From the NCBI GenBank assembly GCA_016839425.1, contig JAEOUI010000394.1:1-7904 (forward strand): a stretch of DNA of 7,904 nt, read 5' to 3'. How positions within the stretch are numbered: position 1 is the stretch's first letter; every line of letters starts with the position of its first letter. The translations under genes were made by a program, and so were the position numbers. The notes under the pieces are model-generated. The model searched no databases. It was not told the DNA's origin and was given only the letters and a program-made list of their open reading frames with translations. The stretch is from Promethearchaeota archaeon. Lineage in GTDB: Archaea; Asgardarchaeota; Lokiarchaeia; Sigynarchaeales; SOKP01. Shown piece by piece: positions 291 through 7,904 of this stretch.

Positions 291-896
291 TCATTTAGAA
301 ACTGTTCCTTTTACGAGGAAATCGACCAAGTCGTTTATGTACTCTTCATCTGAAAGCTCAAAACCAGTCTTGGCCCCATAACTAAATGTTTGGAATAATA
401 AATCCACCCATATCATTGCAGTTAATTTTGGATTTTGGGGGCGGATAAAGCCAACATTTAGCAGCTTTGTAATTATCTTTTCAACAGTCTTATAACCTTG
501 TTGAAGGTACTCTTCCTTCATTTTTGCGTATTTTTGATTAATTCCACCCATTTGATTGACAAAAATTAAGGCCGCATTGCCATGTTGTTTGAAAACGCAG
601 ATATATTCCCTATAGAGTGTTTTTATCAATTTCACGGGAGGTACATCGTACTTTAAGAGCTTTTCTAATTTATCCATAATATCTATATAAAATTCTTCAA
701 TTAGAGTCTCGAAAATTTCTTCCTTGCTGTTGAAATACCGATAAAAATTTCCGACAGAAGTTCCAGCTAAATCCGTGATATCTTTAACTCTAGTGTCGTT
801 GAATCCTTTCTTCTGAAAAGTTTCGACTGCGGCGACCAGATATAAACTCCTTTTTTCCTCTTTTATTTTTTCAGTTCGTTCCTTTCGAGAAGTCAT
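291..896 (-). CDS. TetR/AcrR-family transcriptional regulator
   Basis: A 201-residue protein with the standard TetR layout and length. A basic N-terminal arm (residues 1-16) is followed by helix 1 with the typical A..TFQKKGF pattern (about 22-32). A helix-turn-helix DNA-binding unit follows at about 36-57: VKDITDLAGTSVGNFYRYF, with the family hallmark YRYF then NSKEEIF. The remaining roughly 140 residues form an all-helical ligand-binding and dimerisation domain that is not diagnostic. TetR proteins usually bind palindromic operators as dimers and release them when a small ligand binds; the ligand is unknown here. The ATG at 896-894 is preceded by a weak AGGA. It lies 319 bases downstream of a second TetR gene on the same strand, and the two are only distantly alike. 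The function call is secure; target genes are not. Confidence 0.93.
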   Translation of the reverse strand: MTSRKERTEKIKEEKRSLYLVAAVETFQKKGFNDTRVKDITDLAGTSVGNFYRYFNSKEEIFETLIEEFYIDIMDKLEKLLKYDVPPVKLIKTLYREYICVFKQHGNAALIFVNQMGGINQKYAKMKEEYLQQGYKTVEKIITKLLNVGFIRPQNPKLTAMIWVDLLFQTFSYGAKTGFELSDEEYINDLVDFLVKGTVSK

Positions 897-1215: not shown

Positions 1216-1878
1216 TTATTCAAAATTAGCTTCAGCGATAAACCTAAGTTTTTTAAGCACATATTTTCGAAATTTCTCTACAGAGATATTAGGAGGGCTC
1301 CCCTTGAAAGATCTATTCATATATTGAAGAAACCTTTCGATATAAACGGTCCCATAAAAAATAACAGATAAAAAAAGGAAATATTCAAAAATTTCTTCTT
1401 GATTTATATTTTCCGCTTGAAATGCTTCTCTTATATAGTCTATTGATAAATCAAATAATTTAGAATTTATGAAATCTTTTTCTACAGGTCCAACTTTATC
1501 GTCATTAGGGGGAGGGACATTCCAAATCATTTTATATCTTTCATAATCTTCAGCAGCGAAGTTAAGGAAAAATTCACCCCATTTTTCAGTTAATTCTACT
1601 AAAGATTTTTTATATGGTTCTATAGCTCTTTCCCTCATATCAATATATTCTAAAAGCTTTTTTTTACGAATAGCAAACCAGAGTTCTCTTTTGCTGGTTA
1701 TATAATTGTAAAGATTAGCCAGAGATACATTTAAATTTTTTGCCAAAGTCCTCATTTTAGTGCCTTCTGGACCATATTTTAAAAATAGTTTCTCTCCTTC
1801 TTCTAGAATTTTCTCATATTTCTTATTTTTTTCTTCTAGACTTCTAGCTCTTCTTTTTTTTGTCTTTTTTTCATTCAT
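1216..1878 (-). CDS. TetR-family transcriptional regulator with a basic N-terminal arm
   Basis: A 220-residue protein. The first roughly 20 residues are unusually rich in Lys and Arg (MNEKKTKKRRARSLEEKNKK), which would suit DNA contact. Helix 1 (about 22-36, ending LFLKYGPEGT) and a helix-turn-helix at about 41-61 (MRTLAKNLNVSLANLYNYI, then TSKRELW) follow the TetR pattern. The C-terminal part is helical and rich in aromatic residues (for example FEYFLFLSVIFYGTVYIERF), pointing to a hydrophobic ligand pocket or dimer face. The gene lies 202 bases downstream of the alpha/beta hydrolase gene on the same strand. A T9 run lies between the two, so they are probably separate transcripts. No Shine-Dalgarno is visible before the ATG at 1878-1876. 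A weak dyad GTAAA-GATT-TTTAC (1950-1963) lies about 75 bases upstream. The family is clear; ligand and targets are unknown. Confidence 0.9.
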   Translation of the reverse strand: MNEKKTKKRRARSLEEKNKKYEKILEEGEKLFLKYGPEGTKMRTLAKNLNVSLANLYNYITSKRELWFAIRKKKLLEYIDMRERAIEPYKKSLVELTEKWGEFFLNFAAEDYERYKMIWNVPPPNDDKVGPVEKDFINSKLFDLSIDYIREAFQAENINQEEIFEYFLFLSVIFYGTVYIERFLQYMNRSFKGSPPNISVEKFRKYVLKKLRFIAEANFE

Positions 1879-1993
1879 TTTTGCTTAATTTTAATCTTAC
1901 GGTCTTGCTAAATCTTATTGAAAAAGGTAATGAATATCTTAACTAATAAGTAAAGATTTTTACGCTAATTAAAAAATTTATTTTGTATATAAT

Positions 1994-2002
1994 AAAAAAA
2001 AA
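1994..2002 (-). terminator. T9 run, likely archaeal terminator of the hydrolase gene
   Basis: Nine A's on the plus strand give a run of nine T's on the minus strand, about 80 bases after the hydrolase stop codon and before the next minus-strand gene. Archaeal RNA polymerase commonly terminates at such T-runs without a hairpin. The call rests on position and base composition only. Confidence 0.4.
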
Positions 2003-2080
2003 GAGAATTTATGATTATCCAATTTAGATTTTATTTAAACTCTTTTTATAATCGGTTTGTTAGTTTCTTTATATGTTTGT

Positions 2081-3319
2081 TCATCCATGAGCAATTAACC
2101 ATTCTACCAGTGGTTCACTAATATCTTCTTCCATATGTTCACCAGCATATATATCCAAATGTCGATAATATGGTAAGTCGAACGCTGTAAAGTCAGAGGG
2201 ATTTGCAGTTCCATACAAGAAAGTATTAAGTCCACTCATACCACTATGCACGCCAAAATAGGGGAGATCTATATTGATAATATATTCATCGAAATCGGTA
2301 GTTACTTGCGTTGAGCAGTTCCAATCTCGAAAATTTGCCGTTTCAATTCCTAGTCTTGTAGGGAAGAACTTAGTCAAACCGGATAGAATACTCAACATTG
2401 GCATTATCGTACCGTAACCCCCAGACATATTTGATAAATTCGTCATTGTTGTGAGATAAAACTTTCCAAATTCTGAAATGTTATTAAAAGCAGGAGCAGG
2501 TATTGGTGGTAGCATTGTATATGGATCAATGGCAGGCGCACCAGGAAATTGATAAGCATATTTCCAGCAGAGATGAAATGGTGCTTCCTGAGCCCAACCT
2601 CCTGAAGGGACTGCTTCTAAAGCAGCGCTCAAATTATGAGTATTAGTAGTAATTGCTGCATTTTTTCCCCCACTTCCACCATCAAGACCTATTAATCCTT
2701 TCAAATTATGCTTCCAGTGTAGGGCCGCATAGTTTTCCATTGCGCCACCACCGAAGCTTTGCCCAGCCATAAATATCTTGCGCTTTCCAGTAATATCCTT
2801 AATCTTTTGTACACATTCGTCTATATCGCTTATCCATTGATCCCATCCCCAGTCCATCATAAAATCGGTCTCGGATTTATCTATTGTATCGGGTACATAA
2901 TAAGTTCGATAATTTATTGAGAAAACATCGAAACCCCTGTTGGCGAGATAAAGAGCGTAAGCTCGACTTTCTTCTCTAGTATAATAAAAATCGCTATCAC
3001 GCTGCCCTATTAATTGACTGCCAGCACTCCATGTTCCAGGAAGTATAAAAACAACATCTCCAGTCTTCGTACTACAATCAACAACCCTACATAATCCTAT
3101 TCTATCGTATTCGTCGTTAGGCAGCTGTTTTGGAACTTTTTCCCAATAATATTCCCTTAAATCTGGATATGGATAACTTGCTCGAGCTTTAATGATTAAA
3201 TCCCAACCATCATCCTTTACCCAAATTGGTTGATTTTGTATGATAATAGTTGCAAATATTAACCCAATTGCTACGATTGAGGTAGCTATTTTATGTTTTT
3301 CCATTTCCATTTTTATCAC
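2081..3319 (-). CDS. Membrane-anchored alpha/beta-fold hydrolase (esterase/lipase-like)
   Basis: A 412-residue protein with a short basic N-terminus (MIKMEMEKHK) and one hydrophobic segment at about 11-28. This predicts an uncleaved signal anchor or signal peptide with the enzyme outside the membrane. The fold is shown by an oxyanion-type turn FILPGTW (91-97) and the nucleophile elbow AGQSFGGG, with Ser188 as the probable nucleophile. The C-terminal YRHLDIYAGEHMEEDISEPL matches the usual H-L-D-x-x-x-G-E pattern, making His387 the likely catalytic His (His395 is the alternative). The catalytic acid is not certain; Asp351 is a candidate. A long insert (about 220-340, rich in Pro, Gly, Asn and Met) would form a lid or cap. 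Five cysteines (77, 82, 169, 251, 335) lie in the predicted outside part. The start is a GTG at 3319-3317; ATGs three and five codons later are possible. No Shine-Dalgarno is visible. Substrate unknown. Confidence 0.82.
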   Translation of the reverse strand: MIKMEMEKHKIATSIVAIGLIFATIIIQNQPIWVKDDGWDLIIKARASYPYPDLREYYWEKVPKQLPNDEYDRIGLCRVVDCSTKTGDVVFILPGTWSAGSQLIGQRDSDFYYTREESRAYALYLANRGFDVFSINYRTYYVPDTIDKSETDFMMDWGWDQWISDIDECVQKIKDITGKRKIFMAGQSFGGGAMENYAALHWKHNLKGLIGLDGGSGGKNAAITTNTHNLSAALEAVPSGGWAQEAPFHLCWKYAYQFPGAPAIDPYTMLPPIPAPAFNNISEFGKFYLTTMTNLSNMSGGYGTIMPMLSILSGLTKFFPTRLGIETANFRDWNCSTQVTTDFDEYIINIDLPYFGVHSGMSGLNTFLYGTANPSDFTAFDLPYYRHLDIYAGEHMEEDISEPLVEWLIAHG

Positions 3320-3341: not shown

Positions 3342-3357
3342 TTTACATTTATGTAAA
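3342..3357. promoter_or_regulatory. Candidate operator, TTTACA-N4-TGTAAA, upstream of the hydrolase
   Basis: The sequence TTTACATTTATGTAAA is a perfect dyad with six-base half-sites and a four-base spacer, and it extends one pair further on each side (3341-3358). It ends about 22 bases before the GTG start of the hydrolase. The same half-sites with the same spacing recur at 5306-5321. Outside it, CAGG (3335-3338) and CCTG (3364-3367) add imperfect symmetry. Its size and symmetry suit a dimeric helix-turn-helix repressor such as TetR. Confidence 0.5.
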
Positions 3358-3390
3358 ATCTCGCCTGTTTAATAGTTGAACATTGTTCGT

Positions 3391-3400
3391 TTATAAATTT
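3391..3400 (-). promoter_or_regulatory. Candidate box A (TATA) for the hydrolase gene
   Basis: The minus strand reads AAATTTATAA here. Transcription would then start near 3370, giving a leader of about 50 bases that contains the dyad at 3342-3357. If the mRNA is instead leaderless, box A would overlap the dyad itself. The sequence does not decide between these. Confidence 0.35.
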
Positions 3401-3598
3401 TTTGCATCATTAATAAACCATCAATCGAGTTAATATTTTATCTGATTAACCGAGCTGAAATAATTACTTACGCAATAAACATGATAATTAAATTAGTAAA
3501 AATAAATAAGTTCAATCGAGGAGTCGATAAAAAAATCTAAATAGTTATTTATTTTTTAGATAAATAATAGCAAAAGTATGGTTTTTTTTGATTGCAAT

Positions 3599-3626
3599 AT
3601 ATCTTAAATGAAATTATTTAAGATAT
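3599..3626. repeat. Perfect 11-base inverted repeat upstream of the transglutaminase-like gene
   Basis: The arms are ATATCTTAAAT (3599-3609) and ATTTAAGATAT (3616-3626), separated by the six bases GAAATT. It lies about 73 bases before the TTG start of the next gene. It is longer than expected by chance even in AT-rich DNA. It could be a regulator binding site or a hairpin. An 11-base match to its left part (ATCTTAAATGA) occurs near 1034-1044 in the gap between the TetR genes. Confidence 0.5.
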
Positions 3627-3685
3627 TATATTTTCATAAATATACTAAATACATATTTTAAACCAATCATTTAATAAAAGCGTTT

Positions 3686-3693
3686 AAAGGAGA
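3686..3693 (+). promoter_or_regulatory. Strong Shine-Dalgarno that fixes a TTG start
   Basis: AAAGGAGA, with GGAG at 3689-3692, is followed after six bases by TTG at 3699. This is the best ribosome binding site in the window and decides the start of the transglutaminase-like protein. There is no nearby in-frame ATG that fits the family start. Confidence 0.8.
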
Positions 3694-3698
3694 TTTAA

Positions 3699-4367
3699 TT
3701 GAGTCTGAATGAATATCTTCAACCAAATGAATTTTTTGATTTTAATAAAAAAAGGGTAAGGCAAAAAGCATTTGAAATAGTAAAGGATTTGTCAAGCGAC
3801 AAGGAGAAATTAATAGCTTTATTCTATTGGGTCAGGGACGAAATCAAGTATAATATGATGTCCTATGTACCGAAAATAAAAGCAAATTTCAAAGCAAGCG
3901 TTACTCTTCGAAGAAAATACGGATTTTGCCTTTCAAAGTCTGTTTTACTTTCTTCATTTGCTCGAGCTATAGGTTTACCTGCCCGCATCCACGCCGTCGA
4001 TATTATTAATCATAAGATCTCTTCTAAAGTTGTTGAGCTTATGGGTACGAAGGTTTTCCATTATCACGCATACAGCGAAGTGTACATTGATGGAAGATGG
4101 ATTAAATTGGCTCCGATATTTGACAAGAATACGGCACTTAAAGGAGGATTCTTACCAATGGTAGAGTTTGATGGAGAGAACGACGCTTTGTTTTCCTCCA
4201 TTGATTTAGAAGGAAACACATATGTTGAGTATGTGAAAGATAGGGGGATACACGAGACCGTTCCTATAGATGATATTAGGAGATTATTTGCAGAAAAATA
4301 TAAGACTTTGGTGGACGAGCCTTTTCCTCCGAGAACAATAAAGAACGATGCTTTAGGTTATAAATAA
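3699..4367 (+). CDS. Transglutaminase-like (papain-fold) domain protein, probably cytoplasmic
   Basis: A 222-residue protein made almost entirely of one transglutaminase-like core. After a helical N-terminus (YWVRDEIKY at about 43-51) comes the catalytic Cys motif KYGFCLSKSVLLSSFARAIG (74-92, Cys77), ending in LPAR. This is the usual G-x-C-x-x-x-(A/S)...R-A-x-G-(I/L)-P-A-R pattern. The His motif is FHYHAYSEVYIDGRWIKLAP (120-139), with His123 the likely catalytic His. At the place where the classical triad has Asp (W-V-x-L-D-P) this protein has Ala138. The next acidic residue is Asp142. Many microbial relatives also lack the Asp at this place, so activity is not excluded. There is no signal peptide or membrane segment. 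Such enzymes act as proteases, amidases or crosslinkers, and the substrate is unknown. The TTG start is supported by the Shine-Dalgarno just upstream. It is divergent from the hydrolase gene. Confidence 0.85.
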   Translation: MSLNEYLQPNEFFDFNKKRVRQKAFEIVKDLSSDKEKLIALFYWVRDEIKYNMMSYVPKIKANFKASVTLRRKYGFCLSKSVLLSSFARAIGLPARIHAVDIINHKISSKVVELMGTKVFHYHAYSEVYIDGRWIKLAPIFDKNTALKGGFLPMVEFDGENDALFSSIDLEGNTYVEYVKDRGIHETVPIDDIRRLFAEKYKTLVDEPFPPRTIKNDALGYK

Positions 4368-4380
4368 ATTAACAATATTT

Positions 4381-4396
4381 GCATTATCAATAATGC
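4381..4396 (+). terminator. Small hairpin after the transglutaminase-like gene
   Basis: GCATTATCAATAATGC is a perfect dyad that can fold into a six-pair stem with a TCAA loop. It lies 14 bases after the stop codon and is followed by TATTTCT rather than a clean T-run. It may help termination or protect the 3' end; it could also be a protein site. Confidence 0.35.
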
Positions 4397-4506
4397 TATT
4401 TCTAATAATTCAAGTATTAAACAAGTCCTTAAAGGTTTAAAGCTTCAAAATTATGAGATATTATCCTATTCTTTTTATTAAATCTTGAGTTAATAAGACT
4501 AAGACA

Positions 4507-4514
4507 TTTTATAC
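4507..4514 (+). promoter_or_regulatory. Candidate box A (TATA) for the DUF166 gene
   Basis: TTTTATAC is centred about 26 bases before the ATG at 4537, and no Shine-Dalgarno precedes that ATG. Both facts fit a leaderless archaeal mRNA starting at or next to the start codon. Confidence 0.5.
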
Positions 4515-4536
4515 TTTAAAAATTAAGAAAACTATT

Positions 4537-5271
4537 ATGAAAATCCTCATACTTACTGACGGAAAATATGGAGATCGGGCAGTAAAAGTGATAAAAAAAA
4601 AATTCCCTGAAACAACCCTCCTCACAGTTAGAGAAGAGGATCCAACAATGATCTTAGACATTGTTGAACTCGAATCAGATGTGGAAAAAGCAATCGGAAA
4701 AGCAGATCTTCTCATCGTTTATGTGAGACACCCAGATGTCGTAAGTGAGATCTGTTCAAGACAGAAACCCACCATTCTAGCAATTAATTTTGGGGAAGGA
4801 TTCTATAATCAAGAAAAATTACTTAATCCTCGTATTTCAATGCCTTTTAGTATGTGTAATGCACTTCCCAATACGGGAATTCAAGAGGTTGACGAATATT
4901 TTTATAAATTTGGTACACCAATTTATAATGTCAAGATTGATTTTATTGAAAACAATATTCCTACAATTAAAAAAGCGTCTCTATTGGTTGAAAGCCCTTG
5001 TGGTGCTTCAGAAGCGAGTTTAGATTTTATACTTGGGAAAGTAATATCAGTTGAGACTCTCAACTCATTTGCTATAAATGTTAGGCAAGAATGCAGGGAA
5101 CCCGTATCTTATTTACTTTCTCGAAGCGATATGAATGAATCATCCTCCATTTTGCATCTCCTTAACTTGTTAGATGCTATCGAAAAGGAAGCCCCGTCTT
5201 TATTCAAAACTGAAAATCCTATCCGAGAATACGCTGAAAAGTGGCGAAAAGATTTCAAACAAAATATTTAA
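4537..5271 (+). CDS. DUF166-family protein of unknown function
   Basis: A 244-residue soluble protein. The N-terminus MKILILTDGKYGDRAVKVIK, followed by a Rossmann-like alternation of strands and helices (for example ADLLIVYVRHPDV at 56-68), matches DUF166 (PF02593), a family found mostly in archaea and without an assigned reaction. Further family-like marks are MCNALPNTG (106-114), VESPCGASEA (151-160) and VRQECREPVSYLL (182-194). The cysteines Cys107, Cys155 and Cys186 sit in these motifs and could bind a metal or an Fe-S cluster; Cys73 lies outside them. The tail (about 200-244) is helical. Some databases have labelled relatives as thymidylate synthase, but I see no support for that here. 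It is preceded by its own TATA-like box and followed by 126 bases before the next gene, so it is probably a single-gene transcript. The family assignment comes from recalled motif similarity. Confidence 0.8.
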   Translation: MKILILTDGKYGDRAVKVIKKKFPETTLLTVREEDPTMILDIVELESDVEKAIGKADLLIVYVRHPDVVSEICSRQKPTILAINFGEGFYNQEKLLNPRISMPFSMCNALPNTGIQEVDEYFYKFGTPIYNVKIDFIENNIPTIKKASLLVESPCGASEASLDFILGKVISVETLNSFAINVRQECREPVSYLLSRSDMNESSSILHLLNLLDAIEKEAPSLFKTENPIREYAEKWRKDFKQNI

Positions 5272-5290
5272 AATATTCTTTCTAAACTAG

Positions 5291-5300
5291 TTTATATATA
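5291..5300 (+). promoter_or_regulatory. Candidate box A (TATA) for the 57-aa/155-aa unit
   Basis: TTTATATATA is the clearest TATA-like run in the 126-base gap before the small gene. It overlaps the perfect 12-base palindrome TAAACTAGTTTA (5283-5294). Transcription would start near 5320-5325, leaving a leader of about 75 bases. That leader contains an eight-codon reading frame starting at ATG 5341, which I do not call as a gene. Confidence 0.45.
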
Positions 5301-5305
5301 GAGAA

Positions 5306-5321
5306 TTTACAGAAATGTAAA
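5306..5321. promoter_or_regulatory. Candidate operator, TTTACA-N4-TGTAAA, second copy
   Basis: TTTACAGAAATGTAAA has the same half-sites and spacing as the dyad upstream of the hydrolase. It lies between the TATA-like box (5291-5300) and the expected transcription start, a position where a bound repressor would block initiation. An extra TGTAAA half-site occurs at 5392-5397, directly before the ATG of the small gene. Confidence 0.5.
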
Positions 5322-5397
5322 GATTTAAATATTAACAAAAATGTATAATTATGCTAAATTTAATTAACAGCAAAGCGAAATTCAAAAGTGTTGTAAA

Positions 5398-5571
5398 ATG
5401 TCTGAAAAACAAGAAATTGAAAAATTCAAGAAGGTTTTGGAAGAAAGAGGCATTGATATTGATGCTGAAATAGAAAGAAAAAAAGAGCATCTTGAACGGA
5501 TGGATTTATTAAATCGACAATTATCAGTTTCAAGAAATATAAAAATACAGCAATTAAAATTAGGAGAGTAA
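5398..5571 (+). CDS. Small charged helical protein (57 aa), unknown function
   Basis: A short frame from ATG 5398 to TAA 5571 encodes 57 residues, beginning MSEKQEIEKFKKVLEERGID. It is rich in Glu, Lys, Ile and Leu, with two amphipathic helices (about 2-17 and 21-50) split by GIDID, as in small coiled-coil or helical-hairpin proteins. Evidence that it is real: its sequence is protein-like, the frame is open only from 5368 so ATG 5398 is the natural start, and its last codons contain the strong Shine-Dalgarno of the next gene, with only four bases between stop and start. Against it: no Shine-Dalgarno is visible before its own ATG. A 36-codon basic frame starting at 5352 overlaps it and looks less protein-like. 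Co-expression with the 155-aa protein is very likely; they may interact. Confidence 0.62.
   Translation: MSEKQEIEKFKKVLEERGIDIDAEIERKKEHLERMDLLNRQLSVSRNIKIQQLKLGE
5562..5568 (+). promoter_or_regulatory. Shine-Dalgarno of the 155-aa gene inside the end of the small gene
   Basis: AGGAGAG lies within the final codons of the 57-aa gene, and GGAG is nine bases before ATG 5576. The overlap of ribosome binding site and upstream stop suggests translational coupling of the two genes. Confidence 0.75.
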
Positions 5572-5575
5572 AAAA

Positions 5576-6043
5576 ATGAGTTTTCATAGTCCTGTATATG
5601 ATATTTTAGGGGAGAGAATAATTTCATTTCGTGAGTTAGTGTATAATGCACTAGGTGGTGTAACTATTTTAATTTCTGAGCCTCGGAATTATGATGGAAG
5701 TGTGTTTAATGAAAAAGAAATAGCAGTTTTAGATGTGCAAGTAATAAATGGCTCAGATTATACTCTTAAAAATGTTGTTGTTCAGATTAGTGTAACTGGT
5801 TGTGCAAAAATATATCCATTTAGAATTTGGGGGAAATCAGAGTTATTAGGTGAACATGGATTATTTGATGGAGAAGAATCATGGAATATCTTGCATCCTC
5901 ACGATACAAAAAGTTTTATAGTTAGGATAAAGGGAATATGTGCAGGGATGGCTTATGCAAAAGCAGAAATATGTGCAGAAGTTGTTCCATTTGCTAGCAG
6001 AGAAGTCTCATCGACTCTATCTTTTCCAGTCTATGAAGATTAA
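5576..6043 (+). CDS. Beta-sandwich (CARDB/Ig-like) protein, 155 aa, unknown function
   Basis: The protein has no signal peptide and no membrane segment. After a short N-terminal part (about 1-45) comes a pattern of alternating hydrophobic strands typical of an Ig-like or CARDB-type beta-sandwich. AVLDVQVINGSDYTLKNVVV (50-69) matches the V-x-V-x-N-x-(S/G) first-strand pair of such domains. HPHDTKSFIVRIKGICAGMA (107-126) matches their L-x-P-x-(D/G)-x-x-x-F-x-V-x-(I/V) strand, and the domain ends near VSSTLSFPV (144-152). Cysteines 76, 122 and 133 fall in or beside predicted strands. Most proteins with such domains are secreted, so a stand-alone cytoplasmic one is unusual and suggests a binding or scaffold role. 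The start is fixed by a good Shine-Dalgarno. It follows the 57-aa gene by four bases and is convergent with Ftr. The fold call comes from the strand pattern only. Confidence 0.72.
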   Translation: MSFHSPVYDILGERIISFRELVYNALGGVTILISEPRNYDGSVFNEKEIAVLDVQVINGSDYTLKNVVVQISVTGCAKIYPFRIWGKSELLGEHGLFDGEESWNILHPHDTKSFIVRIKGICAGMAYAKAEICAEVVPFASREVSSTLSFPVYED

Positions 6044-6048
6044 AATAC

Positions 6049-6056
6049 TTTTTTTT
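6049..6056 (+). terminator. T8 run between convergent genes
   Basis: Eight T's begin six bases after the stop codon of the 155-aa gene and overlap the stop codon of Ftr (6057-6055). A T-run here is what an archaeal plus-strand terminator would look like. The two convergent genes are only 11 bases apart. Confidence 0.5.
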
Positions 6057-7193: not shown

Positions 7194-7904
7194 ATGTCTC
7201 CTAACGCAGTTTTTTTGTACGAAATTGACAAGTCATTTGGTCCAAACCTCATTGCAGAGTTTAATTTAACTAAAACAAAGATTTCGAAAGATTTTCTAAT
7301 TGAATTAGCCAAAAAGCATGTAGATAAGGAATTAACAGATGCAACCGCCACGAAGGGCGATATAAAAGGCTATTCAAGCAAGATAGAAGGAGAACCCATA
7401 AAGAAGAACAATCTTTACCTTGGATTCATAATGAAAGACGATGAGGAGTTAATATCGTTGAAAAGCTTAGTTGAGAAAATGGAATCTAATGTGATTGAAA
7501 ATTATTCAACCGATAAGAACAAGCTGACTCAAGTCCTGAAACAGAACATGACCTCCATCTTAAGCTTAATGGAAAGGCTTAAAGAACCAAAATTAATCGT
7601 AGAAACCATTAACGAAAAAACGAAAAAAATGCTCGATGACGGTAAAATACAAGAGGCTCGAGAATTAATCGATCTTGGAGAAAAAGTCCCGGATAAATTA
7701 GCAGCAGAAATGAAACTTGCTGAAGAACTCTTTAAGGCAAAGGATTTTAAAAAAGCCAAAAAAAGCTTCGAAAAAGCAGCAGATTTAGCCGCACAAATAC
7801 AGGAGGAGGAAATCGTGTCGTTTTTGATAAACAAGGGAGAACAAGTAGGAACATATCCCGAATTACTTAAGGAGAGAGACACCATCACGAGAGAAATGAA
7901 AAAA
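7194..7904 (+). CDS. Longin-like plus TPR-like helical protein (3' end cut by window edge)
   Basis: An open frame from ATG 7194 runs off the right edge without a stop (237 residues so far). It is the only in-frame ATG after the stop at 7155-7157. Residues about 1-105 look like a small alpha/beta domain: AVFLYEIDKSFGPNLIAEF (5-23), a helix, then NNLYLGFIMKDDEEL (72-86) and a helix SLKSLVEKMESNVI. This order and the F-G-P-N-(L/I)-I-A-E motif recall longin or roadblock-like domains that are abundant in Asgard archaea, where they often pair with small GTPases. Residues about 145-237 are helical pairs of TPR type, with A-x-x-L and A-x-x-x-F-x-x-A spacing (AEELFKAKDFKKAKKSFEKA at 176-195). A scaffold or adaptor role is likely. 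It is divergent from ftr. Coding potential is strong; the longin call is tentative and no Shine-Dalgarno is visible. Confidence 0.75.
   Translation, partial: MSPNAVFLYEIDKSFGPNLIAEFNLTKTKISKDFLIELAKKHVDKELTDATATKGDIKGYSSKIEGEPIKKNNLYLGFIMKDDEELISLKSLVEKMESNVIENYSTDKNKLTQVLKQNMTSILSLMERLKEPKLIVETINEKTKKMLDDGKIQEARELIDLGEKVPDKLAAEMKLAEELFKAKDFKKAKKSFEKAADLAAQIQEEEIVSFLINKGEQVGTYPELLKERDTITREMKK

Follow-up and report, generated by a model that had tools for sequence, protein, structure and literature searches.

Two 16-bp inverted repeats of the form TTTACA-N4-TGTAAA, referred to as dyad 1 and dyad 2 in the rest of the text, stand in the first 7,904 nt of a contig of a Promethearchaeota archaeon (JAEOUI010000394.1, assembly GCA_016839425.1; "the window" means this whole stretch), one ahead of an alpha/beta hydrolase gene and the other ahead of two open reading frames (ORFs) of 57 and 155 amino acids (aa). 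Are they copies of one regulatory element, and which protein would bind them? A sequence-only reading of the window had described both dyads exactly as they are, and our search confirmed them as its sole exact matches. The same reading had taken them for operators of a shared repressor, with the two TetR-family proteins encoded nearby (TetR1 and TetR2) as obvious candidates. Its first part stood: placement, recurrence of linked genes, sites shared between promoters and a test that started from genes instead of the motif all mark the dyad as a promoter element, and comparison with related genomes indicates that it is probably the operator of a dimeric transcription factor common to Lokiarchaeal relatives. 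The assignment to TetR1 or TetR2 found no support.

Within the window alone, the pair makes a modest case. Even one such dyad had been judged, by eye, uncommon in this length of DNA. For the exact pattern, independent bases give an expectation of 0.004 per window; repeated dyads of some kind, however, turn up more readily in simulation. Among 400 Markov-1 simulated windows with the same dinucleotide make-up, 6% contained a repeated perfect 6-4-6 dyad of any sequence and 45% a repeated 6-N-6 dyad at any spacing from 0 to 12. When up to two mismatches were allowed, the window had four matches; 200 dinucleotide shuffles averaged 1.54, and 17 of them had at least four. At the rate found in the 97 relatives introduced below (0.33 per Mb), meeting the exact pattern twice within 7904 bases has P ~3.5×10−6, a figure that is not a clean test, the pattern having been picked after being seen. 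As a by-eye pattern, the pair is only suggestive.

The formylmethanofuran formyltransferase (FTR) encoded in the window has its 12 best relatives (69-79% identity) exclusively in Lokiarchaeota/Lokiarchaeia, with locus L001 of genome G001 at the top (79%); judged by this similarity, the window is of Lokiarchaeal origin. We carried out the comparison in 97 relatives of G001 (~334 Mb), which include the 12 FTR-matched genomes. Placement was examined for 103 distinct sites of the 111 exact N4 matches, 69 of 91 with a five-base spacer (N5), 69 of 87 with a three-base spacer (N3) and 30 of 104 for the reversed pattern; the remaining sites were merged by context or their sequence was not retrieved, and some genomes were picked because their counts were high or served as controls, irrespective of where their sites lie. 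Intergenic positions accounted for 77/103 N4 sites compared to 16/69 for N5, 15/69 for N3 and 6/30 for the reversed pattern (P = 3×10−16 for N4 versus N5 plus N3, Fisher's test). An earlier, smaller like-for-like comparison had given 16/30 versus 16/60 (P = 0.019), and 14 of the 15 sites examined among the 18 in the FTR-matched genomes were intergenic. Likewise, 65/103 N4 sites lay no more than 250 bp upstream of an ORF of at least 80 aa, compared to 10/69, 10/69 and 3/30 for N5, N3 and the reversed pattern, respectively. Placement at promoters is thus specific to the N4 spacing, as would be expected of the operator of any regulon, and comparison of these sites suggests that the dyad is a promoter-associated element and probably a genuine regulatory switch.

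A further test did not start from the motif. Using a 107-aa member of a family of 100-119-aa proteins as a query against the 97 relatives, we took 70 promoters regardless of whether they carried the dyad, namely those of the 30 best copies (one per genome) and of 40 further copies, some being skipped, from a list of well over 100. With at most one mismatch, 17 of the 70 contained the N4 dyad, whereas N1, N2, N3, N5, N6, N7 and the reversed pattern were found in 0, 1, 0, 0, 2, 0 and 0, respectively; with at most two mismatches, N4 rose to 35 and the same controls to 7, 9, 8, 12, 23, 3 and 7. Leaving out three promoters already known from the motif search gives a cleaner figure of 14/67. The dyad is hence conserved at homologous promoters found without it, as expected of a regulon operator. 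In 32 of the 35 promoters, the distance from the dyad to the matched coding region is 76-118 bp. Of the 31 promoters used for the analysis of layout, 26 have the start of a TATA-like word 0-7 nt behind the dyad, compared to 2-10 of 31 in each of the later 8-nt bins. The family consensus reads TTKACA-N4-TGTAAA, with an almost invariant right half. The promoter comparison itself brings out the element, its spacing and, in this family, its position, mostly some 100 bp ahead of the start and immediately followed by a TATA-like box.

A profile of dyad plus TATA box, built from 27 of these promoters, yielded six matches at five places in ~0.83 Mb of relatives' loci that had not been chosen for N4, one being a catalase site already known. 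It had no match in 0.85 Mb of FTR loci from other archaea (L013-L080, of unmatched base composition), and a reversed profile matched (five times) only in loci chosen for the reversed pattern. Extrapolation from these few matches suggests about 20 dyad-plus-TATA promoters per genome. These results also bear on the idea that TGTAAA is merely a strong recognition element for transcription factor B (TFB) before the TATA box, with the left half as its extension. The right half-site overlaps the place of the archaeal TFB-recognition element beside the TATA box, and a right half that is nearly invariant and abuts the TATA box, next to a more variable left half, fits such a core promoter element. However, the left half occurs at the N4 distance and, with one mismatch, hardly at others; the profile is rare; and copies are also found after the TATA box and in pairs. 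A left half-site at a fixed 4-bp spacing is not known to be part of any TFB-recognition element. We consider this explanation improbable.

Genes linked to the sites recur across genomes. For 39 of 85 ORFs linked to intergenic N4 sites, a homologue was linked to a site in another N4 locus, compared to 5-20 of 85 for random genes of control loci (12 draws), so that target families recur, measured against random genes, as those of a regulon should. A first control, 0/18 linked ORFs of control patterns, was too small, and 80 more control sites and the random-gene background were added; within each control pattern recurrence was 0 (12, 12 and 4 links). The recurrent families comprise the 100-119-aa proteins (eight genes; several were run on Pfam, with no match), DUF3303 (four, all by Pfam), a 132-aa DUF4345-like membrane protein (four, Pfam below cut-off), SCO4226-like proteins and aldehyde ferredoxin oxidoreductases (three each, Pfam), an MFS-like protein (three, Pfam weak on the one run), Ras-like GTPases (three, Pfam on two) and divergent ThiC-like genes (three, Pfam on two). 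Single cases include a catalase beside a Fur-family gene, OsmC and a carboxymuconolactone decarboxylase-like protein. We also considered the 100-119-aa family as DUF3303-like, a kinship that was not supported (hhalign probability 0.3%).

Diverged orthologous promoters have sites in common in G009/G047 (61% protein and 61% promoter identity), G003/G045 (54% and 57%) and G039/G009 (77% and 60%). All were found through the exact motif, and the evidence lies in their co-occurrence, not in the 12/12 match. Paired exact dyads occupy one intergenic region in G040 and G038 (104 bp apart; L251 5949-6068 and L252 5914-6033) and in G061 (46 bp apart; L253 1528-1589). The 104-bp pair is conserved from G040 to G038; of the 46-bp pair, G047 has a degenerate second copy.

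Dyad 2 is, by this comparison, a canonical copy before the 57-aa/155-aa unit: it is followed by GA and then TTTAAATA, the same layout as in the promoters of the 100-119-aa family, and it scores 24.4 with the dyad-plus-TATA profile, compared to 13.0 for the next match in the window and 17.0 for the best of 60 base-shuffled windows. It had been placed between a TATA box and the expected start of the unit. Such a box exists (TTTATATATA), but the promoter comparison favours TTTAAATA, and the candidate TATA box of the unit probably lies downstream of the dyad, not upstream. The unit is an insertion between the DUF166 and FTR genes (window 5272-6054). The 155-aa protein has no relative except itself among 5.8 billion proteins, and its best E value in the 97 relatives is 0.056; its single-sequence model (mean pLDDT 56), compared with the PDB, gave mostly beta-sandwich domains as best matches, at E >0.001 and template modelling (TM) scores of ~0.3-0.4, and no function was inferred.

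Dyad 1 lies just upstream of the hydrolase start, as had been claimed, ending 22 bp before GTG 3319 and 31 bp before the likelier start, ATG 3310. It is plausibly a less canonical, weaker member of the motif, and we grade it so because no TATA box adjoins it downstream and because of its 31-bp distance to ATG 3310. At the orthologous position in L001, the one orthologous promoter compared and that of a dead hydrolase gene, TTTACAAATATGTGAA retains 11 of the 12 half-site bases. A perfect 11-base palindrome, GAACATTGTTC (3378-3388), adjoins the candidate hydrolase TATA box and is not kept in L001. Alternatively, dyad 1 could have nothing to do with dyad 2 and form a hairpin in the leader RNA of the hydrolase. 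The fold of this leader reaches −9.3 kcal/mol and includes an outer stem (z −2.2; 7/200 shuffles as good). We regard this as very unlikely, as the dyad 2 stretch is ordinary in this respect (z 0.1), the outer stem is not kept in L001 and the window has no Rfam match.

Several observations weigh against a shared operator. Exact N4 copies, at 111 in the 97 genomes, are hardly more numerous than the reversed pattern (104), N5 (91) or N3 (87). In the gene-first promoters, N6 at two mismatches also reaches 23/70 compared to 35 for N4, and the family is large, some promoters coming from near-identical genomes, so that the 17 are not independent. Pooling the control patterns gives 4/28 recurrent linked ORFs; N4 subsamples of the same size have 8.0 on average, and 10.5% of them have four or fewer. 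Recurrence is well above that of random genes, but its margin over the pooled control dyads is not clear when samples are equally large. Genes in the relatives are mechanical ORFs, and many genomes are fragmented. In the window itself, no TATA box follows dyad 1 immediately when read towards the hydrolase, and this dyad falls outside the ten best profile matches; the 11/12 match in L001 is weak, the surrounding stretch being 70% identical; and the unit behind dyad 2 has no orthologue whose promoter could serve for footprinting.

A genome-wide count against the chance rate had been put forward as a check on the motif. Taken alone it is misleading, the count being near the control level while placement at promoters differs from the controls, and we discarded abundance as a criterion, since without a clear N4 excess over the reversed pattern it neither supports nor refutes an operator. 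Those counts, and the 45% of simulated windows with some repeated dyad, are what could be said for pure chance, namely that AT-rich DNA often repeats dyads and that the promoter positions are coincidental. The placement and gene-first tests and the profile score of dyad 2, beyond the shuffled maximum, speak against it, and we disfavour chance more than any other explanation, giving it next to no weight.

Which protein, then, would bind? TetR1, TetR2 or both could bind the two dyads and keep the hydrolase and the 57-aa/155-aa unit repressed, in a local regulon like that of FadRSa. Two TetR genes do neighbour the hydrolase, a single deletion in L001 has taken out TetR2 together with most of the hydrolase, and TetR2-like proteins are present in several site-rich genomes (G040, G041, G043, G045 and G061). 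FadRSa likewise recognises a dyad of 16 bp, has four binding sites in the genome and controls lipases (PMC6449355). However, the only TetR-like ORF in the 107 N4 loci (459 kb, flanks mostly 1.5-6 kb) is TetR1 of G001, in a locus taken for synteny, and no copy of the dyad with up to two mismatches, such as autoregulation might have left, stands at either TetR promoter of the window. TetR2-like proteins are absent in the site-rich genomes G004 and G037. The dyad-plus-TATA profile had no match in 30 TetR1 loci; its one match in 30 TetR2 loci falls within the TetR gene and barely exceeds the threshold (16.3 versus 16). With up to two mismatches, the 30 TetR2 homologue loci (105 kb) gave 28 matches, or 2.1 per 7.9 kb, near the shuffled 1.54 of the window; five of the 28 lie ~150-165 bp inside a plus-strand TetR gene.

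The TetR1 promoters (18 relatives' loci and the window) also point away from the dyad, many relatives at 43-47% identity having in common another stretch, unlike the dyad and not clearly present in the window or L001. This conserved stretch, close to AAGTAATAAATTTTAACATAATTTCTTAACATGTAATAATA and found upstream of TetR1 homologues in L150, L153, L157, L159, L160, L161, L164, L165 and L166, may be the TetR1 operator itself or a core promoter. We conclude that the binder of the dyad is probably neither TetR1 nor TetR2, and that regulation by the neighbouring TetR proteins is unlikely. In G043, an exact dyad (L237 1501) is found 35 bp ahead of a catalase gene, with a Fur-family regulator in the divergent direction; a Fur/PerR operator was considered and rejected, as G004, G037, G045, G047 and G061, with three to four sites each, have no match at 1×10−8 to the G043 protein. 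Genes of Lrp/AsnC type lie within ~2.1 kb of dyads in four genomes (L258 1938-2429, L262 1478-1927, L356 2646-3122 and L336 1-864), one being fused to a response regulator, and we conclude nothing from them.

If the dyad is the operator of a dimeric factor, one dimer would occupy it, with the half-site centres one helical turn apart. It would cover the position of the TFB-recognition element and adjoin the TATA box, and might so control assembly of the complex of TATA-binding protein (TBP) and TFB. An operator at this position usually excludes TBP/TFB. Repression would be somewhat likelier than activation. Dyad 1, at or after the hydrolase start site, would act as a roadblock.

The features of the window are collected in the table. 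Its gene order is TetR1, TetR2 and hydrolase on the minus strand, transglutaminase-like, DUF166, 57-aa and 155-aa on the plus strand, and FTR on the minus strand. The hydrolase has one relative (73%; ACFFHD_00275), in a Promethearchaeota metagenome-assembled genome. L001 is syntenic with the window. The 57-aa/155-aa unit is missing from it, and ~60 bp separate the DUF166 and FTR matches in L001 and L006, compared to 783 bp in the window. The L001 deletion (window 1268 to 3162) joins the end of TetR2 to the first part of the hydrolase, and both genes are gone. Its joint lies around 7370-7520 (reverse-complement coordinate 7827) and could alternatively be an assembly joint.

Features of the 7,904-nt window, in order of position
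Feature	Position	Strand	Remarks
TetR-family protein 1 (TetR1)	291..896	-	Pfam TetR_N; 88% identity to L001 copy
TetR-family protein 2 (TetR2)	1216..1878	-	Pfam TetR_N
Alpha/beta hydrolase, 409 aa	2081..3310	-	Pfam Abhydrolase_1; 412 aa from GTG at 3319
Dyad 1, TTTACATTTATGTAAA	3342..3357	.	hydrolase (minus-strand gene) leader/promoter
Alternative hydrolase TATA box, TTTAATA (TATTAAA on minus strand)	3368-3374	-	from sequence
Candidate hydrolase TATA box, TTTATAAA	3390..3397	-	from sequence; would put dyad 1 just after start site
TTTATATATA, TATA box of the sequence-only reading	5291..5300	+	alternative core promoter; from sequence
Dyad 2, TTTACAGAAATGTAAA	5306..5321	+	2 nt upstream of TATA-like box; 92 bp before 57-aa ORF
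TTTAAATA, most likely TATA box of 57-aa/155-aa unit	5324..5331	+	same dyad offset as family promoters
Imperfect dyad copy, TTAACAAAAATGTATA	5332..5347	.	2 mismatches; minus-strand profile score 12.9; far side of TTTAAATA
57-aa ORF, orphan	5398..5571	+	no Pfam match; no relative except itself among 5.8 billion proteins
155-aa ORF, orphan	5576..6043	+	low-confidence all-beta model

A wider reading, which we hold tentatively and at slightly less than even chances, is that a lineage-wide Lokiarchaeal regulator controls some tens of promoters in each genome by way of a dyad joined to the core promoter (TTKACA-N4-TGTAAA-N2-TTTAAATA), and that the orphan two-gene insertion carries a canonical copy. 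Its targets would include the 100-119-aa family, DUF3303, SCO4226-like and DUF4345-like proteins, aldehyde ferredoxin oxidoreductases, catalase and OsmC, families that suggest a redox or metabolite stress response. The pattern, written as TTTACANNNNTGTAAA, TTTACAN4TGTAAA or TTTACA-N4-TGTAAA, occurs in no paper of the literature searched, from which subscription journals are mostly missing and which holds no preprints; nor do the titles and opening parts of abstracts searched there mention an operator, regulon or palindrome of this kind for Asgard archaea or Lokiarchaea. A TATA-adjoining dyad at homologous promoters would provide a concrete bait with which to find a transcription factor of Lokiarchaea; it would also offer a first regulon open to testing among the archaea that stand closest to eukaryotes.

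Two archaeal systems offer comparisons. OxsR, a TrmB-family redox regulator of Haloferax volcanii, apparently activates from upstream of the TFB-recognition element (BRE)/TATA box and represses from downstream of it (PMC9426492). The likeness lies in one motif type at several promoters; the OxsR motif is CG-rich and haloarchaeal (PMC9426492), and nothing here points to a TrmB protein. The regulon of the TetR-family FadRSa of Sulfolobus acidocaldarius is alike in layout, with its 16-bp dyad, its few genomic sites, its lipase/hydrolase targets and one site just downstream of a start site (PMC6449355). In contrast to FadRSa, the relatives' sites have no TetR gene beside them, and their targets are scattered and mostly not lipid genes. 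As a likeness and not a family assignment, FadRSa (PMC6449355) is the closest precedent among archaea for a small TetR regulon built on a 16-bp dyad.

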